From Planctomycetota bacterium (GTDB lineage: Bacteria; Planctomycetota; MHYJ01; JACQXL01; JACQZI01), in the NCBI GenBank assembly GCA_016207825.1, contig JACQZI010000018.1, forward strand, positions 18,698-82,697: a stretch of 64,000 bases of DNA. Reading direction: 5' to 3'. Positions within the stretch are counted from its first letter, which is position 1. Each line of letters starts with the position of its first letter. The notes below the pieces were generated by a model. The model saw nothing but the letters and a program-made list of their open reading frames with translations. It searched no databases and was not told where the DNA came from. Below, in pieces: positions 5,000 through 16,974 of the stretch. A program made the translations under genes and the position numbers.

Positions 5000-6619
5000 T
5001 TAAATAACTTCCTCAACTGCTTTTTTCTCCCGATGCCTCAAGAGTAGCCTGACAAGCCCGTAAAGGATAAAGAGGAACGGCACCAGACCGATATTCAAGA
5101 CTTTGCATAAAAGTTTTGTCGCCGGAGATGTTTCTTTTAATGGTTTTAATTCCGTATCTTTGGCCCGGATGCCGATTAAATCACCGCCCATGGTAGCCCA
5201 ATCAACGGCGTTCAATATGAACGGCAAATTGCCTTCCCGGCCGCCTGAGAGGAGTTGATTGGATATAAAATCAGAATCGCCTATTACCATGATAGTTGCC
5301 GGATTGGCGCATTCCTTTACAGTCTGCCGGTTTTTGTCGGCCTCCGCCGGGAGCGGCGTCTTGTCCGAAGCCGGCTTGGGGGCGGGAATTGGCTTATCCG
5401 AAAAGAAACTCTTGAATTTTCCGCGGATAATAGCGGCCAGAAGATACTGTTTTAAATCAGCCATATTAGGCCGGGGCAAGCGCTGTGCATCGATATTAAA
5501 GTTGTCTTTCTGTTCGGTAGACTTAGGAGTGGTTTTTAATAACTCTGTCACCTCCATATCCGGGATACGGTCTTTATTTATTTCAATCGAACTTATCCAT
5601 GGGAAAGCGACTGTTTCCAGCCGGCTGACAATCGGGTTGTTCGGTGCCATGTGGTCATGCACTACCTTGGGCCAGGGTGGGTAGTTGGTGGAAAACTGGA
5701 CATACTGGCTGCCGAAAGTGACGATGGAATTGGCACCCCAGTCCAGAACCAGGTTGTTATTCAGGCGGACGCCATAATTTTCCAGAAGGTCATTCAGCTT
5801 ATGGCTTTTGGGGAGCGCCATGAACACTTCCGTCGAAACGTTTACCGAATCAATCAGGAAGAAGACATTCTTTCCCTGCATCAGGAATTGGTCAATTTCA
5901 TATTTATCGCGGTCGGAAAGTTCGTTCGGCCCGGCAATGATTAAGGTTTCAACGTCATCCGGTATTTTCGTCCCGTCGGAGGTGTCAACCGTGGTGATTT
6001 CATAATTCTTTTCCAGAGATTGCTTGACCGTGCTGTAATCACTGCTGATAGTATGCTCTCCATGTCCGGTGAGGAAGCATAGTTTTTTGAGCTTGCCTTT
6101 CAGCACCTTAAGTATGGAACTCGTGAGGTCGTATTCAAGATTAGCGACGCTCGTAACGGCCGGCAGGATTTCCTTGCGGTCGGCGTAAAAGATGCCTATT
6201 CCCATGTAAATATTAACCAGCTCGCGTTTATCCTGTTCGATAATACTAGCCTGCAATTGGGGGATGCCCAGGCGCTGGACTTTTTGTTCTTCGTCCTTAT
6301 TTTCAGCCGGGTCAATCCATTCAACCTGCAGTTTACTGCCGGCATAAGCCTGGTATTCATTAAGAGTGTCCCTTATTTCCCCGGCGACCTGCTCCAGCTG
6401 GGTAGGCAGTTTTTTGGAGCAATAGACTTTTATTGAAACGATATCATCCAGCCGTTTCAAGACGTTACGGGTAGATGAAGTGACCGAATAGGACTTATTT
6501 TCCGTCAAATCCCAGCGCCAGAAATAATCCGCGGAGATGAAGTTGACAATCCCCATAATCCCCAGGATGATGACGAGGTTAATCAGGATACCGTAACGCC
6601 TTTTCTTATATCCTTGCAT
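5000..6619 (-). CDS. GldG-like auxiliary protein of an ABC transporter (cluster A)
   Basis: 539 residues. It has an N-terminal membrane segment (ILINLVIILGIMGIVNFISA), a large periplasmic domain of the GldG/ABC_transp_aux type with the typical DLTENKSYSVT start and FLTGHGEH segment, and a C-terminal membrane helix (LNIGLVPFLFILYGLVRLL). GldG partners GldA/GldF in Flavobacterium gliding and secretion; outside Bacteroidota the role is unknown. The start is 3 nt from the permease stop, so the genes are translationally coupled. No gliding genes besides the A/F/G set are present, so a gliding function should not be assumed. Confidence 0.85.
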   Translation of the reverse strand: MQGYKKRRYGILINLVIILGIMGIVNFISADYFWRWDLTENKSYSVTSSTRNVLKRLDDIVSIKVYCSKKLPTQLEQVAGEIRDTLNEYQAYAGSKLQVEWIDPAENKDEEQKVQRLGIPQLQASIIEQDKRELVNIYMGIGIFYADRKEILPAVTSVANLEYDLTSSILKVLKGKLKKLCFLTGHGEHTISSDYSTVKQSLEKNYEITTVDTSDGTKIPDDVETLIIAGPNELSDRDKYEIDQFLMQGKNVFFLIDSVNVSTEVFMALPKSHKLNDLLENYGVRLNNNLVLDWGANSIVTFGSQYVQFSTNYPPWPKVVHDHMAPNNPIVSRLETVAFPWISSIEINKDRIPDMEVTELLKTTPKSTEQKDNFNIDAQRLPRPNMADLKQYLLAAIIRGKFKSFFSDKPIPAPKPASDKTPLPAEADKNRQTVKECANPATIMVIGDSDFISNQLLSGGREGNLPFILNAVDWATMGGDLIGIRAKDTELKPLKETSPATKLLCKVLNIGLVPFLFILYGLVRLLLRHREKKAVEEVI

Positions 6620-6622
6620 AAA

Positions 6623-7324
6623 TTATTTCTGTGTTACGACTATAAAGTTATTTAAGAATAAGAAGAAAAATATCACCGAAAGATAATAAATCACATCGCG
6701 GGAATCTATCACGCCGCGCGCGATACTTTCAAAGTGTGTTGCCGGGCTCAGGAAATATAAAAGCGTGCCCAGAGAGCCGAATATCTGGGCGAGCCAACCG
6801 GCGATAAGCGAGACAGCCAGGATAAATATGGTTAGGAGGAAAGCGATAATCTGGTTTTCGGTCAGGCTTGAGATGCACGTCCCGACCGCGGCGTAAGAGG
6901 CACCCAATAGAGCCGCGCCGATATAACCGCCGATAATCGGGCCGAAATCCGGTTTGCCCAGTAATGCCAGAGTTATCGGCACGTTTATGGAAAGGACAAG
7001 CGTAAGCAGAATTAATAACACGCTTGCCAGGTATTTTCCGATGACTACCTCGTAATCCCTGACCGGCCAGGTTAGAAGAAGCTCTAGTGTTCCCTGCTTG
7101 CGTTCCTCCGCCCACAGGCGCATGGTAATCGCCGCCACGAAGAAGAGGAACACCCAGGGCATTATCCCGAAATAATAACGCATCTCGGCAATATTGTTTA
7201 AGAATAATGTATAGAAAAATAGCCCGTTGGTAAAAAGGAGATATACCACGATGAAGACATAGCCTATGGTCAGGTTAAAGAACGACCTGAATTCCTTGCG
7301 CGTAATAAGCAATATATTCCGCAT
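6623..7324 (-). CDS. ABC-2 type permease, GldF-like (cluster A)
   Basis: 233 residues with about six hydrophobic helices. The RLWAEERKQGTLELLLTWPV segment (after the second helix) is typical of GldF/NosY-type permeases. It sits between the ATPase (6-nt gap) and the GldG-like gene (3-nt gap). It is predicted to form the membrane channel with the ATPase at 7331. Substrate unknown. The protein at 45629-46366 is a clear paralogue, with the matching segment RLLAEEKKSGTLEMLMTAPV. Confidence 0.88.
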   Translation of the reverse strand: MRNILLITRKEFRSFFNLTIGYVFIVVYLLFTNGLFFYTLFLNNIAEMRYYFGIMPWVFLFFVAAITMRLWAEERKQGTLELLLTWPVRDYEVVIGKYLASVLLILLTLVLSINVPITLALLGKPDFGPIIGGYIGAALLGASYAAVGTCISSLTENQIIAFLLTIFILAVSLIAGWLAQIFGSLGTLLYFLSPATHFESIARGVIDSRDVIYYLSVIFFFLFLNNFIVVTQK

Positions 7325-7330
7325 AAAATA

Positions 7331-8272
7331 TTATTTATTATCCTGTTTAGTCAGCTTGATAAAGACATCTTCCAGGGTTGCTTCTTCCTTGTATAATTCG
7401 GCCAGGGTCCAGTTATTATCTTTTGCCAGGTGGAATATTTTCTCGTTGATATCAATATCTTCCGCGCACGTTATTTCGTATTTGCTCAGGTTGTCGCTTG
7501 ATTTCTGGATGGTTTTAATTCCGGTAATCTTATCCAGTGTTTTCAGCTTATTAATAATATCGCTTTCAGACCCGCGTATTTTGGCATAGACGACTGCGCC
7601 GCTGCGCGCCTTGCACTGGAGTTCCTCAATCGTGCCCGAACCGGCGATTTTGCCTTCGTTAATGATGATGACGCGGGTGCAGGTTGCCTCGACTTCCGCC
7701 AGGATATGCGTGCTGAAGATGACGGTCTTTTCTTTGCCGAGCTCCTTGATTAAATCGCGTATCTCGACAATCTGGATAGGGTCAAGCCCGGATGTTGGTT
7801 CATCCAGGATAAGGACTTCCGGGTCGTGTATCATTGCCTGGGCGAGCCCGACGCGCTGGCGGAATCCCTTGGAAAGCTTGCCGATATTCTGCTTGATTAC
7901 CTTTTCGAGTCCGCAGGTCTTGATAATCCGCTTTACCTTTTCCCGTTTATCTGTGGATGGTATATGGCGCATATCCGCGACGAAAGAGAGGAAATCGCTC
8001 ACCCTTAAATCATTATAAAGGGGATTATTTTCGGCCAGGTAGCCGATCTTCCGCCTGATTTCCAGCGGGTTTTCCATGATGTCAAATCCGCCCACGCTTG
8101 CCGTGCCTGCCGTGGGAGGGAGGTAGCAGGTGAGCATCTTCATGGTGGTGGATTTGCCTGCGGCATTGGGTCCTAGGAATCCGACAATCTCGCCTCTGTT
8201 GACCTCAAACGAGATATTATTAACCGCCGTTACGCCCGGATATTTCTTGGTAAGGTTTTTAACTTCTATCAT
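7331..8272 (-). CDS. ABC transporter ATPase, GldA-like (cluster A)
   Basis: 313 residues. Walker A GPNAAGKST (34-42), signature LSKGFRQR (133-140, the variant seen in GldA/CcmA-type exporters), Walker B LILDEPTSGLDP (154-165) and H-loop His189 are all present, followed by the C-terminal extension common to this class. It is the first gene of the operon 8272-3508 and is divergent from the sigma factor gene, with 142 AT-rich bases between. It powers the permease encoded next. Its paralogue at 46363 has the same arrangement. Confidence 0.92.
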   Translation of the reverse strand: MIEVKNLTKKYPGVTAVNNISFEVNRGEIVGFLGPNAAGKSTTMKMLTCYLPPTAGTASVGGFDIMENPLEIRRKIGYLAENNPLYNDLRVSDFLSFVADMRHIPSTDKREKVKRIIKTCGLEKVIKQNIGKLSKGFRQRVGLAQAMIHDPEVLILDEPTSGLDPIQIVEIRDLIKELGKEKTVIFSTHILAEVEATCTRVIIINEGKIAGSGTIEELQCKARSGAVVYAKIRGSESDIINKLKTLDKITGIKTIQKSSDNLSKYEITCAEDIDINEKIFHLAKDNNWTLAELYKEEATLEDVFIKLTKQDNK

Positions 8273-8414: not shown

Positions 8415-9008
8415 ATGGAGAACCTTTCTGATATAGAATTGATTTCCCTGTGTAAAAGCGGTTCTGAGCGGGCGTTTGAAACCCTTTACGAGCGTTACCG
8501 CCAGACCGTGGTTAACTTTGCCTATCAGATATTGAAAGACAAGGATTTATCGCTGGACGCGCTCCAGGAAACCTTTGTCTATGTCTTTAAGAAAATGCCT
8601 GAATACCAGCCGGCTGCCAAACTATCCACTCTGCTTTTTACCGTTACCAGGAATATCTGCCTGAATATGCTGAGTAAAACCAAGTGCAACAAGAGCATAC
8701 CGAACGAAGAGATGAACGGTTTTATCAAAGTAAAAGAGCCGGTAAATTCGATTGAACTTGTGGAGAAAGAGGAGTTGAAGAAAACTGTCGCTGCCGAACT
8801 GGATAACTTACCGGATATTTACCGCGAGGTGATAATACTCAAAATACTTAAGGGGATGCAATATGATGAAATAAGCCAGGTGGTTGGTTGCCCAATCGGG
8901 ACGGTGAAATCGAGGCTTCATAACGCCCTGGAGTACCTGCGGAATAACCTGGCGAAAAAAGGGGAAGAAAAAGATTTAACTGAACCAAAAGGCGAGGTGT
9001 CGGCTTAA
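8415..9008 (+). CDS. ECF-type RNA polymerase sigma factor
   Basis: 197 residues. Region 2 (about 20-85: AFETLYERYRQTVVNFAYQI, then LDALQETFVYVFKK) and region 4 (about 125-180: LPDIYREVIILKILKGMQYD, then GTVKSRLHNALEYLR) are both clear, with no region 3, as expected for ECF sigmas. The next gene, 23 bases downstream, encodes a zinc anti-sigma factor, so this sigma is probably held inactive at the membrane. The start has no strong Shine-Dalgarno sequence. TTGTCA (8338-8343), 17 nt and TCTAAA (8361-8366) form a weak promoter candidate; autoregulation is possible but cannot be read here. Target genes are unknown. Confidence 0.9.
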   Translation: MENLSDIELISLCKSGSERAFETLYERYRQTVVNFAYQILKDKDLSLDALQETFVYVFKKMPEYQPAAKLSTLLFTVTRNICLNMLSKTKCNKSIPNEEMNGFIKVKEPVNSIELVEKEELKKTVAAELDNLPDIYREVIILKILKGMQYDEISQVVGCPIGTVKSRLHNALEYLRNNLAKKGEEKDLTEPKGEVSA

Positions 9009-9031
9009 TATATGGAAGGAAGCGTGTAAAC

Positions 9032-9697
9032 ATGGAATGTAAAGAGATTCTTAATGATATGCTGGTGGATTTTAACGAGAAGGCGTTGCCGGCTAAAACA
9101 GCCCAGATGATATCCGACCATTTAGCCGGTTGCAATAATTGCCGCCAAAGGTGCGAGCAGATAAAGAGCATACATTCGGCATTGAAGTTTTCGGCTGAAT
9201 TGACCAGGCATATAAATATCCCGGAAAAGATGGATAAACAAATAAGAGAGGCAATTCCGGAAATAATCAAGACGCACCGTATGGCAGCGCGCAGGCGGGT
9301 GATAACGGTTTTCGCCTCAGCCGCCGCGGCAATCCTGATTATATTTTCCGGCTGGCTGGTTTTTATGAATATGGAAAAATCCGAAGAGTCCAAGAGCCAG
9401 CCAACCGCGATGAGCCCAAGCCGTCCGGAGCCGACACCGCCTCATGAAACGACCCCGCAGGTTAACCCGCCGCCGATGGAAACAACTCCTGAGCCGCCTG
9501 TGGTTGTCATGGAAGAGCCGGTAAAAGGTGATATCAATAAAGACGGCGAATTGAATATCGTTGACAGCATGCTTATCTGCCAGTATATTCTAAAAGAGCG
9601 GGAAATAACGGATGCCGAATCCGCCGATATTAACGGCGACGGCAAGGTGGATATCGGCGACTCTTTATTAATTGCCAAGAAGTCGTCAGGAGAGTAA
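9032..9697 (+). CDS. Membrane anti-sigma factor (zinc-finger type) with C-terminal dockerin
   Basis: 221 residues in three parts. Residues 1-45 form a ZAS/zf-HC2 domain with Cys3 and H30-xxx-C34-xx-C37, expected to bind the ECF sigma in the cytoplasm. Residues about 89-112 form one membrane helix. A Pro/Thr/Glu-rich linker (about 115-165) leads to a type I dockerin at 166-220. The dockerin has two Ca-loop repeats, GDINKDGELNIVDS and ADINGDGKVDIGDS, with Asp/Asn ligands at D167/N169/D171/D178 and D199/N201/D203/D210. The dockerin is therefore placed outside the membrane. A cohesin-like lipoprotein is encoded 4 nt downstream, making it the obvious partner. Clostridial RsgI proteins also fuse anti-sigma modules to extracellular sensory modules, but with different domains. 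Confidence 0.85.
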   Translation: MECKEILNDMLVDFNEKALPAKTAQMISDHLAGCNNCRQRCEQIKSIHSALKFSAELTRHINIPEKMDKQIREAIPEIIKTHRMAARRRVITVFASAAAAILIIFSGWLVFMNMEKSEESKSQPTAMSPSRPEPTPPHETTPQVNPPPMETTPEPPVVVMEEPVKGDINKDGELNIVDSMLICQYILKEREITDAESADINGDGKVDIGDSLLIAKKSSGE

Positions 9698-9701
9698 TAA
9701 G

Positions 9702-10193
9702 ATGATAAGAATTATAAGTTTATTAATCGTTATTATTGTTATTTCGGGATGCATGGCATCATACAGTGCATCAGCAAAAACCCCGGCTGACATGATGCCG
9801 TACGCTACAATTGCCGGTGAAAATGCGGAGTTAAACGCGGATATCTGGATAGATTGCGGGGAGAATAAATTGGGGGCATATACCCTGGAAGTTATTTACA
9901 ACCCGATAATCGTAGAGGTGAGTGAAATAACAACCTCTGGAGAGAACGCGTTTCCCGGGATGCCCATGTCAAATCCATCTACCTTCAAAAGCGGGAAAAC
10001 CGTTATTATAGGGATGTATACAGGGCATGATGTTCCTGATGGCCGGTTAAAGATAGCCCATATAAAATTTGCGCCTGTTTCCAAAGGGACAAGCCCGCTT
10101 AAAGTGATGTTGCAAAGCATTTATGATACAGCGGGGAATCTGTTTGACGCCACAGCCATCGTTTCTCCGGACAGCCTGACCGTGACTAAATAG
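9702..10193 (+). CDS. Cohesin-like domain lipoprotein
   Basis: 163 residues. ATG 9702 is preceded by AGGAGAG. A signal sequence ends in the lipobox ISGC (Cys17). Residues about 35-160 have the shape of a cohesin module: AELNADIWIDCGENKLGAYT, then LEVIYNPIIVEVSEI, GRLKIAHIKFAPVSKGTSPL and a terminal strand. The family assignment is by pattern, not by search. As a lipidated single-cohesin protein it would display the module at the membrane surface, where it can meet the dockerin of the upstream anti-sigma factor. Tight spacing argues for co-transcription with the sigma and anti-sigma genes. An unrelated Ig-like beta-sandwich is the main alternative. Confidence 0.65.
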   Translation: MIRIISLLIVIIVISGCMASYSASAKTPADMMPYATIAGENAELNADIWIDCGENKLGAYTLEVIYNPIIVEVSEITTSGENAFPGMPMSNPSTFKSGKTVIIGMYTGHDVPDGRLKIAHIKFAPVSKGTSPLKVMLQSIYDTAGNLFDATAIVSPDSLTVTK

Positions 10194-10278
10194 AATTTTC
10201 GCTCCATTCTGATTTTTCCGTGAACCTTTTCGCCCCCTCCTTGCTTAATAGGTATAGTTAATAAAAAAGGAGGTGTTT

Positions 10279-11490
10279 ATGGGAAAGATAGTAAAACCTG
10301 TTGCGCTGATGTTAGTGGTAGTTTCTTTGCTGATGATTAGATGTGCATCTTATAGCAAAGAATGGTCTCCTTCTTGGACAGAAGAAGTTAAATATGAAAA
10401 AGACGCCCAACGTGCGCAAGTTTCTCAAATACCGCCTATAGGATCCTTTACCAGCGAGATAAATTTCAACGCGAATGAATCCGCTCCAAAGTCTAAACGG
10501 CAGGTGATTTACAGCTCATGTTTAAGGCTGGTGGTATTTCATCTCAGGGAAAGCTTGCAGAAGGTGCAGGATATTGCCGGTAAGTTTAACGGGTATATGC
10601 AGGAGATGACCGGGAACAGCATTCTTATCCGCGTTCCGCCGGATTCGTTTTACGATGCCATTGCGGAGATTGAGAAAATCGGTGAGGTCGTAACCAAAGA
10701 CATAAAAGGGCAGGATGTCACCGAAGAGATGCATGATTTGGGAGTAAGGATAAAAAACGCGGAGGATGTCCGGAACCGGCTGGCCGGGCTTTTGGAGAAA
10801 TGCGGCATGATGGAGGATGCGCTTAAGATAGAAAAAGAACTGGAACGGGTTACCGGGGAGATAGAAACGCTCAAAGGCAAATTGCAGTTTATCAGCCATA
10901 ATGTGGATCATTCGGCAATCAGGGTTGAATTTAATATCAAGAATCCTACTGTTATCCAGCAGATTTCTCTTCCGCTTCCGTTCCCGTGGCTGAATGAATT
11001 AGGGCTTGACCATATTCTTAATTACAGCCCGGAGACAAGGGGTAAGGGGAGCAGTTCCAAATTCAAGATGGAAAATCCAGAAGGATTTGTGCGGATGGAA
11101 TATCCCGGCTGGCAGCACGGCATCAGGTTGATTTCGGCTGACGGGATAAATATTTGTGTTTCGGTAAAGCCGAATCTCAAAGGAGGAGCGCTGGATTTCT
11201 GGAGGAAGTTAATCCTGCGTGCCCTAGTTGAAGGGAAGGCGTATTCGCCGATTAGTGAAGAGAAATTGAAGACAAAGAAAGGAGCCGAGGGTGTTATCCT
11301 GCAGTTCGGGACAGAGCAGGCATCCGGCAAGGCTTATCGTTATGACATTGCAATATTTGCCAAGGAAAGCAGTTTTCTCCTATTTATAAAAACAAGAAAA
11401 CTCTATTTAGTTGAAATATCCGGCCCGGAAGAAGTGGTTAAAAAAGAATACGATAAAATCAAGAACGCTTTAGCCAACAGCAAGTTTTAA
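10279..11490 (+). CDS. DUF4349 domain lipoprotein
   Basis: 403 residues from ATG 10279, chosen because AAGGAGGTG ends 4 nt before it; a GTG two codons earlier overlaps that ribosome site. A lipoprotein-like signal ends near MIRCAS (Cys). Residues about 75-220 match DUF4349: a beta-strand region, then RVPPDSFYDAIAEIEKIGEV, VTEEMHDLGVRIKNAE and a coiled-coil hairpin. The remaining C-terminal half is unrecognised. DUF4349 proteins are membrane-associated and often sit beside anti-sigma factors; their function is not established. It lies 85 bases after the cohesin gene with its own strong ribosome site and may belong to the same regulon. Confidence 0.8.
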   Translation: MGKIVKPVALMLVVVSLLMIRCASYSKEWSPSWTEEVKYEKDAQRAQVSQIPPIGSFTSEINFNANESAPKSKRQVIYSSCLRLVVFHLRESLQKVQDIAGKFNGYMQEMTGNSILIRVPPDSFYDAIAEIEKIGEVVTKDIKGQDVTEEMHDLGVRIKNAEDVRNRLAGLLEKCGMMEDALKIEKELERVTGEIETLKGKLQFISHNVDHSAIRVEFNIKNPTVIQQISLPLPFPWLNELGLDHILNYSPETRGKGSSSKFKMENPEGFVRMEYPGWQHGIRLISADGINICVSVKPNLKGGALDFWRKLILRALVEGKAYSPISEEKLKTKKGAEGVILQFGTEQASGKAYRYDIAIFAKESSFLLFIKTRKLYLVEISGPEEVVKKEYDKIKNALANSKF

Positions 11491-12747: not shown

Positions 12748-15700
12748 ATGAAGATAGGAATTGATATCGGTTCGGTCAGTGTTAAGCTGGTTGTTCTGGA
12801 TGATAAGAATGTTATCAAAAAACATGTTTATTGCCGGACGCATGGACAGCCAATAGAAATACTTCTTTTGCTTCTCAAGGATTTAGCCAAATCTTATCCT
12901 TCAGATGAATTTTCCGTTGCGGCAACCGGAAGCGGCGGAAAGCTTGTTTCCGAGGTTTGCGGCATCGGTTTTGTCAATGAGGTCACCGCCCACGCCGTCG
13001 GCACCGGGACGGATTATCCGAAAGTTAGATGCGTGATAGAAATCGGCGGCGAGGACGCCAAGCTGATTCATATCAGCGAAAAAGAAGAGCGGAAAAATAA
13101 CGAAGTTAAAGAACACGTCAGTGTAATAGATTTTGCCACCAATACGGTCTGTGCCGCCGGGACGGGTTCGTTCCTCGACCAGCAGGCATCGCGCCTGGGG
13201 ATAGCGATAGAAAACTTCGGCAGCGTGGTAATGAAATCGGTTAATCCTCCGCGCGTGGCGGGCCGGTGCAGCGTTTTTGCCAAGACGGATATGATACATC
13301 TCCAGCAGGTAGGCACCCCGGTTGAGGATATCGCGGCCGGCTTATGTTATGCCATGGCGCGCAACTTCAGGAGCAATGTCATCAAGGGAAGCCATCTGGA
13401 AAAGCCGGTGGCCTTTCAGGGCGGTGTGGCGGCAAACCAGGGAATGATCCGCGCCTTTAGGGATGTCCTGGAACTGGCGGAAAACGATTTGGTCATACCG
13501 GAAAACTTTGCGCTGCGCGGTGCGATTGGGGCAATATATGAAAGTTCACATGTTCAATCGCTCAAAAGCTCAACAGTCCGGAAATTGATAGATAAGCTCG
13601 AAGAATATGTTAAAGGACGCCGGATTGATCTTAAAACACTCGAACCTTTGGTCGGCGATAATTACCCGATAAATATTCAAACGCATCCGCTGAAAAGCGG
13701 GCAGAAAACGCAGGGGTATCTGGGGATTGATGTCGGCTCGATTTCCACCAATGTGGTGGTGATAGATAAGGATAATAATGTTTTAAGCCGTAGATATCTC
13801 ATGACCGCGGGCAGGCCGATTGAGGCGGTCAGGCAGGGATTGGCCGAGGTCGGTAAGGATGTCGGCGATTTCGTGGAAATCAAGGCGTGCGGCTCGACCG
13901 GCTCGGGCCGTTATATGACCGGCGCGTTTTTCGGCGCGGATGCCATCAAGAACGAAATCACCAGCCATGCCAAAGGCGCCGTGGCAATGGACCCGAAAGT
14001 GGATACGATTTTTGAAATCGGCGGGCAGGACGCGAAATATATCAGCATCTCTAACGGAGTTATCGTTGATTTCACCATGAACAAGGTCTGCGCCGCCGGG
14101 ACGGGGTCGTTCCTTGAAGAACAGGCGGAAAAGCTGGCTATTAAGCTCGACCAGGAATTCGGAGCTCGCGCCTTGAATTCCAAGGCACCGCTTGATTTAG
14201 GCGAACGCTGCACCGTCTTTATGGAATCGCAGCTTAATTATTATAAACAGCAGGGCATGGTCAAGGATGACCTCTTAGCGGGGCTGGCTTATTCGATTGC
14301 GACTAATTACTTGAACCGCGTGGTGGAAAAACACAAGATAGGTAATCATATTTTATTCCAGGGTGGCGTGGCGTTTAACCGTTCGGTTAAGGCGGCGTTT
14401 GAGAAAGTGGTCGGCAAGAAAATTATCGTTCCGCCTCATCATGATATCCTTGGCGCGGTAGGCGCTGCCATTATCGCGCGTGAAGAAACGGTTGGGAAAC
14501 AGACTGCCTTTAAGGGATTCGATTTATCCAAACGAACTTACCAATCGTCATCATTTGAATGCCAGGGATGCCCGAATAATTGCGAAATACGCCGGGTGGT
14601 CTTTGAAAAGGAAAAGCCGATGTTTTACGGCTCCCGTTGCGGCAAATTCGATGATACGGAAGTCAAAAAGGCGCGCCAAACCAATCCTCTGCCGCAGTTA
14701 TTCAAGGAAAGGGAAGAAAAACTAATCGGTAACTTGAAACCGGAAGCCAAAGGTTCCAAGCGCGTCGGCATCCCGAGAAGCGCGATGTTCTTCGACCTGG
14801 CACCGTTATGGATAAGCTTTTTCCAGGGGCTTGGTTTCGAAGTCGTGCTTTCCGACCCGACCAACCGGACGATTATCAAGAAGGGCGTGGAAAACGTCCT
14901 TGCCGAACCGTGTTTCCCGATTAAGACCGCGCACGGGCATATCCTCAACCTTCTTGATAAATCAATAGATTATCTCTTCCTGCCGGTCCAGGTGAATATG
15001 CCCAAACTCGCTCCGGATTTCGTGCGCTCTTATAACTGCCCGTATGTCCAGTCATTGCCTTACACAGCGGAAAGTTCCATCCCGTTTTTGGAATATAACG
15101 TGAAAATACTAAAGACGGTCTTTGAGATGGCCAGAGGAAAGAGATTTATCGTCAAGGCGTTTGAATCGCTGGCGCAAGAGGCAGGCATCAAAGACCGAAG
15201 GGTTATTAGCCGCGCAATCGAATCCGCTTTCAAGGCGCATGACGAATTCAACCGCTGGATGGTAAAACGCGGGCGCGAAGTCCTGAATAATCTAAAGCCG
15301 AATGAAAAGGCAATCGTCTTGGTCGGCCGCCCTTATAATACATCCGACCCCGGCCTGACCCTGGATTTGCCAGAGCGCCTGCGCGAGCAAGGGATTCTGG
15401 CGATACCGATAGATTTCCTTCCGATGGAGGAATTAGGCAGGGAAATCTCTGGCGATTATCCTTATATGTATTGGAAATCCGGCCAGCGGATGCTTACCGC
15501 CGGAAGGATGGTTGCCCGCGACAAGCGTTTGTTTGCCATTTACATCACCAATTTCGGCTGCGGGCCGGATTCATATATTACCAAGTTCTTCGAGCGCGAG
15601 ATGTCCTCCAAAGGCGGATCCGCCTCTGGCGGACACTGCAAGCCATTTATGGTACTGGAAATCGACGAGCATTCAAGCGATGTCGGCGTGATGACCCGTT

Positions 15701-16974
15701 GCGAGGCGTTCCTGGATACCATCCGCCATAGCGAATCGCTCGCCGAGACTAATCTTATCCAGATGCATTCATTCATACCGAGCCGTAAAAACGGCCGGAC
15801 GATTTATATCCCGTATATGGGCGACCACAGCCATACCTTTGCCGCGGCAATCCGGTCGCAGGGGATTCCGTCGGAATCGCTTCCGCTTTCCGATGAGAAG
15901 AGTCTTTCCTTCGGCAGGAAATTCACCACCGGCAAGGAATGTTTCCCGAGCATCATTACGACCGGCGATATCGTCAAGAAGGTTAATGAGAACGGTTTTA
16001 AGCGTGACAAGAGCGCTTTCTTCATGCCCGCGGCACAGGGACCCTGCCGTTTCGGGCAGTATAATAAGCTCCACCGCATGGTTCTGGACAGCCTTGAATA
16101 TGATGATATCCCGATAATGCTCTTTGACCAGATTGATTGTTACCATAAAGACGTGGCGGCGCTGGGCAAGAGCAGTTTTAAGCGGATGGCATGGCGCGGG
16201 TTTGTCATGATTGACCTCATGCAGAAAATGATGATGGGAATACGCCCGCATGAAGTTAACAAGGGCGAATCAGACTACGTCTATAAGGAATCGCTGGAGG
16301 AATTGACCGGCCGCATGGAAAAGAACAGCGATTTGGCATCTTTTGCCGCCCAAACAAGGCATCGCTTTGCCCAGGTAAAGACAGACCCGACTATTAAGAA
16401 ACCGAAAATCGGGGTGGTCGGCGAGATTTATGTCCGTAATAACCCCTTTGCCAATGATTTCATGGTCAGGAAGCTCGAGTCCCTGGGTGCGGAAGTTTCG
16501 CTCCCGCCGATGGAGGAATGGGTGGATTATTTGGATTATTGCCGCAAGGGAACTTATCTTACGAACAAAGACTATAAGCATTATCTGGCGCAAAGAATTG
16601 CCGAATTCGTCCAGGAATATGATGCCAACCGCCTGAGAAAAGGATTCAAGGGCGCCATCCGCGATTTCCCCCTGGAAGACTCGATGGAAAAGGTGATACA
16701 TTGCGGCGGTTGTTATATCAGTCCGGCAATTCTTGGCGAATCGATATTGTCAATGGGGCGCGCTGTGGAATACGCCAAGAAGGGGTTCCACGGGATTGTG
16801 AACGTGATTCCTTTCGGGTGCATGCCGGGTATTGTAGTGACGGCGATACTGAAGCAATTCCGGGATGACTATCCCGATATCCCGATAATCACTCTGACGG
16901 TGGACGGTGTAAAAGACCCGGGCGGCGAAATGCGCTTGGAAGCCTTTGTCCAGCAGTGCTGTGATAACATGTGA
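12748..16974 (+). CDS. 2-hydroxyacyl-CoA dehydratase activase-related protein, double BadF/BadG domain plus DUF2229
   Basis: 1408 residues. Two tandem ASKHA ATPase domains each carry the activase motifs. In domain 1 (1-270) they are IGIDIGSVSVKLV, NTVCAAGTG (Cys135) and AGRCSVF (Cys174). In domain 2 (323-580) they are LGIDVGSISTNVV, NKVCAAGTG (Cys448) and GERCTVF (Cys488). The Cys pairs would hold the bridging 4Fe-4S cluster. A CxxCxxxC region (605-612, plus Cys631) begins a DUF2229 module, and the C-terminal part resembles a HgdB-type dehydratase subunit. Such giants are widespread in anaerobes; the presumed role is ATP-driven low-potential electron transfer, substrate unknown. Residues 956-961 are encoded by a palindromic micro-repeat (15613-15633) that looks inserted between FFEREMSS and CKPFMVLEIDEH. 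Confidence 0.88.
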   Translation: MKIGIDIGSVSVKLVVLDDKNVIKKHVYCRTHGQPIEILLLLLKDLAKSYPSDEFSVAATGSGGKLVSEVCGIGFVNEVTAHAVGTGTDYPKVRCVIEIGGEDAKLIHISEKEERKNNEVKEHVSVIDFATNTVCAAGTGSFLDQQASRLGIAIENFGSVVMKSVNPPRVAGRCSVFAKTDMIHLQQVGTPVEDIAAGLCYAMARNFRSNVIKGSHLEKPVAFQGGVAANQGMIRAFRDVLELAENDLVIPENFALRGAIGAIYESSHVQSLKSSTVRKLIDKLEEYVKGRRIDLKTLEPLVGDNYPINIQTHPLKSGQKTQGYLGIDVGSISTNVVVIDKDNNVLSRRYLMTAGRPIEAVRQGLAEVGKDVGDFVEIKACGSTGSGRYMTGAFFGADAIKNEITSHAKGAVAMDPKVDTIFEIGGQDAKYISISNGVIVDFTMNKVCAAGTGSFLEEQAEKLAIKLDQEFGARALNSKAPLDLGERCTVFMESQLNYYKQQGMVKDDLLAGLAYSIATNYLNRVVEKHKIGNHILFQGGVAFNRSVKAAFEKVVGKKIIVPPHHDILGAVGAAIIAREETVGKQTAFKGFDLSKRTYQSSSFECQGCPNNCEIRRVVFEKEKPMFYGSRCGKFDDTEVKKARQTNPLPQLFKEREEKLIGNLKPEAKGSKRVGIPRSAMFFDLAPLWISFFQGLGFEVVLSDPTNRTIIKKGVENVLAEPCFPIKTAHGHILNLLDKSIDYLFLPVQVNMPKLAPDFVRSYNCPYVQSLPYTAESSIPFLEYNVKILKTVFEMARGKRFIVKAFESLAQEAGIKDRRVISRAIESAFKAHDEFNRWMVKRGREVLNNLKPNEKAIVLVGRPYNTSDPGLTLDLPERLREQGILAIPIDFLPMEELGREISGDYPYMYWKSGQRMLTAGRMVARDKRLFAIYITNFGCGPDSYITKFFEREMSSKGGSASGGHCKPFMVLEIDEHSSDVGVMTRCEAFLDTIRHSESLAETNLIQMHSFIPSRKNGRTIYIPYMGDHSHTFAAAIRSQGIPSESLPLSDEKSLSFGRKFTTGKECFPSIITTGDIVKKVNENGFKRDKSAFFMPAAQGPCRFGQYNKLHRMVLDSLEYDDIPIMLFDQIDCYHKDVAALGKSSFKRMAWRGFVMIDLMQKMMMGIRPHEVNKGESDYVYKESLEELTGRMEKNSDLASFAAQTRHRFAQVKTDPTIKKPKIGVVGEIYVRNNPFANDFMVRKLESLGAEVSLPPMEEWVDYLDYCRKGTYLTNKDYKHYLAQRIAEFVQEYDANRLRKGFKGAIRDFPLEDSMEKVIHCGGCYISPAILGESILSMGRAVEYAKKGFHGIVNVIPFGCMPGIVVTAILKQFRDDYPDIPIITLTVDGVKDPGGEMRLEAFVQQCCDNM
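15613..15633. repeat. Palindromic micro-repeat inside the activase gene
   Basis: GGCGGATCCGCC (15613-15624) is a perfect 12-nt palindrome and overlaps TCCGCC-TCT-GGCGGA (15619-15633), a hairpin with a 3-nt loop. The reverse complement of the latter differs from the intergenic hairpin at 38513-38527 at one position. It adds a Gly/Ser-rich stretch to the protein in frame. Confidence 0.65.

Follow-up and report, generated by a model that had tools for sequence, protein, structure and literature searches.

A dockerin-bearing anti-sigma factor and an adjacent cohesin-fold lipoprotein as a probable transmembrane sigma switch in Planctomycetota

A 64,000-nucleotide stretch of DNA from a Planctomycetota bacterium (assembly GCA_016207825.1, contig JACQZI010000018.1; hereafter the window, at its full length) carries a same-strand run of four genes at positions 8415-11490. 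They encode an extracytoplasmic function (ECF) sigma factor, an anti-sigma factor with a dockerin, a lipoprotein of the cohesin fold and a DUF4349 protein (Table 1). We consider it probable that this locus encodes a transmembrane sigma switch whose anti-sigma factor is fastened in the periplasm by a dockerin-cohesin clasp of its own. The computational analysis established the domains, the cohesin fold, the exclusivity of the pair within its genome, a phylum-wide linkage, natural fusions and a confidently modelled docking in a relative. It is on balance also probable that the locus belongs to a class spread through the Planctomycetota, in which dockerin-cohesin binding would be the contact that holds or releases the anti-sigma factor and a VWA or DUF4349 protein would act as sensor or effector.

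A previous interpretation of the DNA letters without database searches (the sequence-only reading) had placed four open reading frames (ORFs) at these positions, and all four were recovered there. It had also described an ECF sigma factor followed by a one-helix, zinc-binding (ZAS) type anti-sigma factor with a two-loop dockerin at its C-terminus, which was borne out by Pfam, by an Hx3Cx2C motif and by a single hydrophobic segment. The zinc signature of the anti-sigma protein, Cys3 together with H30-x3-C-x2-C (H30LAGCNNC), is intact, and the hydrophobic segment spans residues 93-111. The zf-HC2 profile remained below its threshold on this protein (16.7 bits vs a cut-off of 22.2; E 0.0077); of the 15 aligned proteins, 3 match it at an E of 0.01 or lower. 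Since zf-HC2 is short and insensitive and does not define the family, the assignment was based on signature, topology and gene order. With its Hx3Cx2C motif and its gene adjoining an ECF sigma gene, the product falls into the class I anti-sigma (ASDI) group, and going by its family the cytoplasmic domain would bind and silence the ECF sigma factor. The profile check proposed for the dockerin gave a clear match to Dockerin_1 (PF00404), with 42.1 bits vs a curated cut-off of 22.9. Both 12-residue loops are canonical, as in type I dockerins, and a phmmer search matched the domain to the cellulosomal dockerin 1daq.

The lipoprotein encoded next is a cohesin by its predicted fold. Searches of the window protein against Pfam, PF00963 included, and NCBIfam returned no match, and phmmer on the cohesin-like protein by itself gave nothing usable. 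Among the members of its family, 5 of 15 matched PF00963 directly (best E 2.8e-5). An AlphaFold model built on 15 aligned sequences contained nine strands and reached a predicted local distance difference test (pLDDT) value of 85.4 overall and above 90 in the domain. When this model was compared with the PDB, all 50 matches listed by Foldseek and all 50 listed by VIA-align 2 were cohesins or cohesin-containing chains. The best match listed was 6kgc (Z 12.1, root-mean-square deviation 2.5 over 118 residues, 18% identity), and non-cellulosomal cohesins of Archaeoglobus fulgidus and Clostridium perfringens ranked high (2xdh, 2vo8, 2jh2). The possibility that the lipoprotein is not a cohesin, which the sequence-only reading had named as fatal to its proposal, was thus ruled out by the fold matches in the PDB, all of them cohesins among those listed.

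Dockerin and cohesin-like protein are linked far beyond the window. A search seeded by the lipoprotein alone yielded matches in 15 genomes, its own included, and a dockerin sequence, read from the DNA, lay directly 5' of the cohesin-like gene in all 14 others; in some of these the dockerin is half degenerate, and the contig end truncates the protein in L050 and L059. When 392 Planctomycetota genomes were screened with the lipoprotein-family profile, 30 matches had E values no higher than 7.4e-21. Each of the 30 has a dockerin directly upstream, which in L102 is half a dockerin (E 2e-3). Five weak profile matches (L110, L114, L115, L117, L118) were not counted; they have no separate upstream membrane-dockerin gene and resemble secreted proteins of other kinds, in some of which a single long chain holds both cohesin and dockerin.

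An organism-named scan, built on a second subtype of the locus only and thus without window-type relatives in its list, returned 67 loci, nearly all titled planctomycetes. A few were titled Verrucomicrobia, Myxococcota, Deltaproteobacteria or Acidobacteria, metagenome labels being taken as deposited. A dockerin lies directly upstream in 61 of the 67, a sigma gene is present in 52 and a VIT-VWA gene in 59; another dockerin-like ORF occurs in two loci (L167, L169), both weak. Six loci have no upstream dockerin: in L133, L145 and L165 the sequence ends too near on that side, and in L123, L174 and L182 none was detectable. A scan with a mixed alignment (A1) found no conserved stretch, and a scan of viral contigs found no relative. 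The linkage of the two modules, whose absence from relatives would have spoken against the sequence-only reading, is therefore conserved, and chance adjacency was ruled out by the 392-genome survey together with the 67-locus scan. Of the proposed four-gene order, the adjacency of dockerin and cohesin held in relatives; the fourth place is usually taken by a VWA gene (VIT-VWA or YfbK-like) rather than by DUF4349.

Within the source genome (2.89 Mb, 97.6% complete) the dockerin is the single PF00404 match, the window protein is the one match to the lipoprotein-family profile, and DUF4349 occurs as a single copy. The sole dockerin, the sole cohesin-like match and the sole DUF4349 sit in consecutive genes, which makes the pairing more than chance. 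With one dockerin and one cohesin candidate in this genome, the question of the partner is unusually clean. Genomes G006, G002, G012, G054, G030 and G060 likewise have one PF00404 match each, within the same operon type. PF00963 matched nothing across the source genome, and the multi-cohesin scaffoldin and many dockerin enzymes that characterise a cellulosome are missing from it. A cellulosome remnant was ruled out by the presence of exactly one dockerin and the genome-wide lack of a PF00963 match.

The dockerin of the anti-sigma factor is predicted to bind the cohesin lipoprotein of the next gene. Hints of such docking come from natural fusions, from modelling and, more modestly, from the distance correlation given further below. 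In L099 (3265-4059, + strand) the membrane-dockerin protein and the cohesin form one ORF of 265 amino acids (aa) with no inner signal peptide; the lack of a signal peptide between the two parts makes an assembly artefact less likely. In L116 (3924-4871, - strand) a membrane protein is fused to a cohesin-like domain, between the sigma and VIT-VWA genes; no dockerin was found there, and the match to the cohesin-like family is weak (E 8.8e-5). The complex prediction proposed by the sequence-only reading was carried out on a relative's pair. The dockerin and cohesin of L091 were modelled with AlphaFold as a single chain, with one in-frame TAG read as Gly, and were predicted to dock with a predicted TM-score (pTM) of 0.77 over 233 residues. 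This value is close to the ordered fraction of about 0.78, which indicates a confident relative placement of the two domains; for independent domains we estimate an expected pTM of about 0.53. The second calcium loop is the part of the dockerin kept most often, and the interface is therefore expected at this loop.

The relatives fall into two subtypes. Operons of the window type keep the zinc anti-sigma signature and the lipobox cohesin, and their VWA gene, where present, is YfbK-like (L047 and L048; in L091 on the strength of a short match). In the second subtype a VIT-VWA gene comes next, and the zinc motif is retained in 3 of 61 cases. The ZAS motif described by the sequence-only reading is thus present in the window protein and its closer relatives and lost from most second-subtype members. 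A membrane segment is kept by 56 of 57 proteins of this subtype, and the N-terminal domains that lack the zinc ligands still have a P-x-x-x-D-x-x-I stretch in common with the zinc-bearing ones (hhalign probability 88%, against 0.0 to 0.1 for shuffled controls). Anti-sigma domains without zinc occur commonly in ECF systems (PMC7406223). In the anti-sigma relatives of L048, L049, L051 and L091 a long stalk, coiled-coil-like by eye, separates the dockerin from the membrane, as though it bridged the periplasm. A clade comprising L050, L052, L053, L054 and L057 carries after the pair, in place of a VWA gene, a gene for a Ser/Thr kinase with a cyclic-nucleotide-binding-like part, the kinase being assigned by sequence reading. 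L058 (4210-4998, + strand) encodes a 98-aa membrane-anchored dockerin-like protein without an anti-sigma domain, directly 5' of a cohesin-like lipoprotein; no sigma gene was found within the stretch examined.

A DUF4349 gene near the pair was also found in L095, L112, L122 and L143. The DUF4349 domain has no known function. Its protein is probably an accessory part and, recurring beside the pair in distant genomes, may be a further part of the system. The sequence-only reading had called the window product a DUF4349 lipoprotein: the domain was confirmed, and the lipoprotein assignment is not established, as the sequence LMIRC, with Arg at position -1, has no canonical lipobox.

The scheme that follows is inferred as regards cellular binding, the direction of control, the proteolysis and the signal. 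The cytoplasmic anti-sigma domain would hold the ECF sigma factor silent, the single helix would cross the inner membrane, and the C-terminal dockerin would dock in the periplasm onto the cohesin lipoprotein. By analogy with RseA and RseB, the latter would serve as an envelope-side co-regulator whose docked state protects the anti-sigma factor from degradation. Undocking might be triggered by loss of the lipoprotein, by a competing ligand, by a change in calcium or by action of the operon's VWA or DUF4349 protein. The undocked anti-sigma factor would then be cut by an RseP-like protease and the sigma factor set free. An M50 protein of 603 aa with a long insert is present in the source genome; M50 proteins are nearly universal, so this is a weak indication.

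Several points weigh against the protective clasp. The docking model is that of a relative's pair and was judged by pTM alone, without a mismatched-pair control, and the training of AlphaFold included cohesin-dockerin complexes. The partial distance correlation of dockerin and cohesin exceeds those with sigma by a modest margin (r 0.32 vs 0.21 and 0.20), and such mirror-tree correlations are weakly informative and confounded by species history. In the clade with the kinase gene the first calcium loop is lost and the second dockerin loop kept, so binding in its members must rest on the second dockerin half. Given L058, the pair may act apart from sigma control. The sign of regulation could equally be the opposite. 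The cohesin lipoprotein would in that case be an activating ligand which, when accumulated or mislocalised, docks and exposes the anti-sigma factor to proteolysis. Anatomy and linkage would be the same, and a cohesin gene inside the operon would suit an amplifying ligand, provided that the sigma factor drives transcription of its own operon; the cohesins of L099 and L116, however, are permanently joined to a membrane protein and fit a standing component better. We regard an activating ligand as unlikely.

Quite unlikely in our estimation is a mainly structural pair, in which an inner-membrane protein is joined to an outer-membrane or periplasmic lipoprotein and a VWA protein as an adhesion or envelope bridge, its expression being driven by the neighbouring sigma factor. 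The membrane dockerin without anti-sigma domain in L058, the loss of the zinc motif from most second-subtype members and the VIT-VWA neighbours in 59 of 67 loci would all suit such a bridge. However, Hx3Cx2C persists in the window protein and its closer relatives, the sigma gene adjoins in 52 of 67 loci, and the N-terminal domain is still related once the zinc motif is lost. The dockerin might also be a calcium-stabilised appendage, with no partner or with another cohesin, whose adjacency to the lipoprotein gene is historical. The degenerate first loop in one clade fits this explanation, as does the fact that the partner of dockerins and cohesins outside cellulosomes is often not known. Against it stand the phylum-wide adjacency, the natural fusion and the modelled docking, and neither PF00963 nor the family profile revealed another cohesin in the genome. 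We regard an appendage as highly improbable.

The proposed clasp resembles the RpoE-RseA-RseB system of Escherichia coli, in which an ECF sigma factor is likewise paired with a single-pass anti-sigma factor whose periplasmic part is bound by a periplasmic protein, as is predicted here. RseB bound to RseA shields RseA from DegS (PMC3944529). The systems differ in that the contact predicted here is a dockerin-cohesin contact and the partner a lipoprotein of the cohesin fold, not of the RseB fold; an RseB-like role is possible for the window lipoprotein, which is not a member of that family. Similar to the window protein, the RsgI partner of SigI in Acetivibrio (Clostridium) thermocellum is an anti-sigma factor of the membrane that carries an extracellular module and is linked to modules of the cellulosome type. 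Sigma-I is not known as an ECF sigma factor, whereas the window sigma factor matches ECF-type models. The outer module in the window is a dockerin, whereas those of RsgI bind substrate and include CBM3, CBM42, CBM35, PA14-like and GH modules, with no dockerin among those listed (PMC3413522).

The cohesin fold and a calcium-loop dockerin are shared with the non-cellulosomal cohesins and dockerins of A. fulgidus and C. perfringens and with the planctomycete 'planctosome'. Those of C. perfringens are parts of secreted glycosidases. To our knowledge, no sigma or anti-sigma factor takes part in the cohesin-dockerin systems of C. perfringens or in the planctosome. The latter is a proposed cohesin-dockerin peptidase complex for peptide degradation (PMC6461901). 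Anti-sigma factors of the ASDI group agree with the window protein in the Hx3Cx2C motif, the one transmembrane helix and a gene adjoining the sigma gene (criteria in PMC7406223). The text of that survey makes no mention of a dockerin.

The sequence-only reading had claimed that no such system was described, and none turned up in the open-licence full-text literature, which leaves most subscription papers outside; no description of a dockerin within an anti-sigma factor was found there. A sigma factor, an anti-sigma factor and a periplasmic co-regulator make up a known plan; the dockerin-cohesin contact would be new and suggests an undescribed way of envelope sensing in Planctomycetota. Few known protein pairs bind as tightly as dockerin and cohesin, which have been studied almost solely as the glue of enzyme complexes. 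If the proposal is right, their interaction would have a second biological role as a signalling contact. It would also offer a testable mechanism of ECF sigma control in Planctomycetota and a function for the orphan membrane dockerins and small secreted cohesins of the phylum.

Table 1. Features of the four-gene locus (window positions)
Feature	Position	Strand	Characteristics
ECF sigma factor, 197 aa	8415..9008	+	Pfam Sigma70_r2 9e-12, Sigma70_r4_2 9.5e-14
Anti-sigma factor, 221 aa	9032..9697	+	zinc anti-sigma domain, one transmembrane segment, Pro-rich linker, C-terminal dockerin
Dockerin domain, aa 165-216	9524..9679	+	PF00404 E=9.8e-11; loops DINKDGELNIVD (aa 167-178) and DINGDGKVDIGD (aa 199-210)
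Cohesin-fold lipoprotein, 163 aa	9702..10193	+	lipobox ISG-C17; cohesin domain at about aa 41-163 (predicted fold)
DUF4349 protein, 403 aa	10279..11490	+	PF14257 5.1e-30; N-terminal hydrophobic segment

The genes are closely spaced, with 23 nt between the sigma and anti-sigma genes, 4 nt from the anti-sigma stop to the start of the cohesin-like ORF and 85 nt from the cohesin stop to the DUF4349 gene; no terminator-like site was found between the last two. The window sigma factor shares 52% identity with the product of the sigma gene at the equivalent place in L047. Divergent from the sigma gene, at 5000-8272 on the - strand, lie genes for an ABC transporter ATPase, an ABC-2 permease and a GldG-like auxiliary protein (ABC_transp_aux 1.1e-62); this transporter was not found beside the G006 locus. 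Further downstream, positions 12748-16974 on the + strand encode a 1408-aa protein with two BcrA/BadF ATPase stretches and DUF2229, of the CoA-enzyme activase type.

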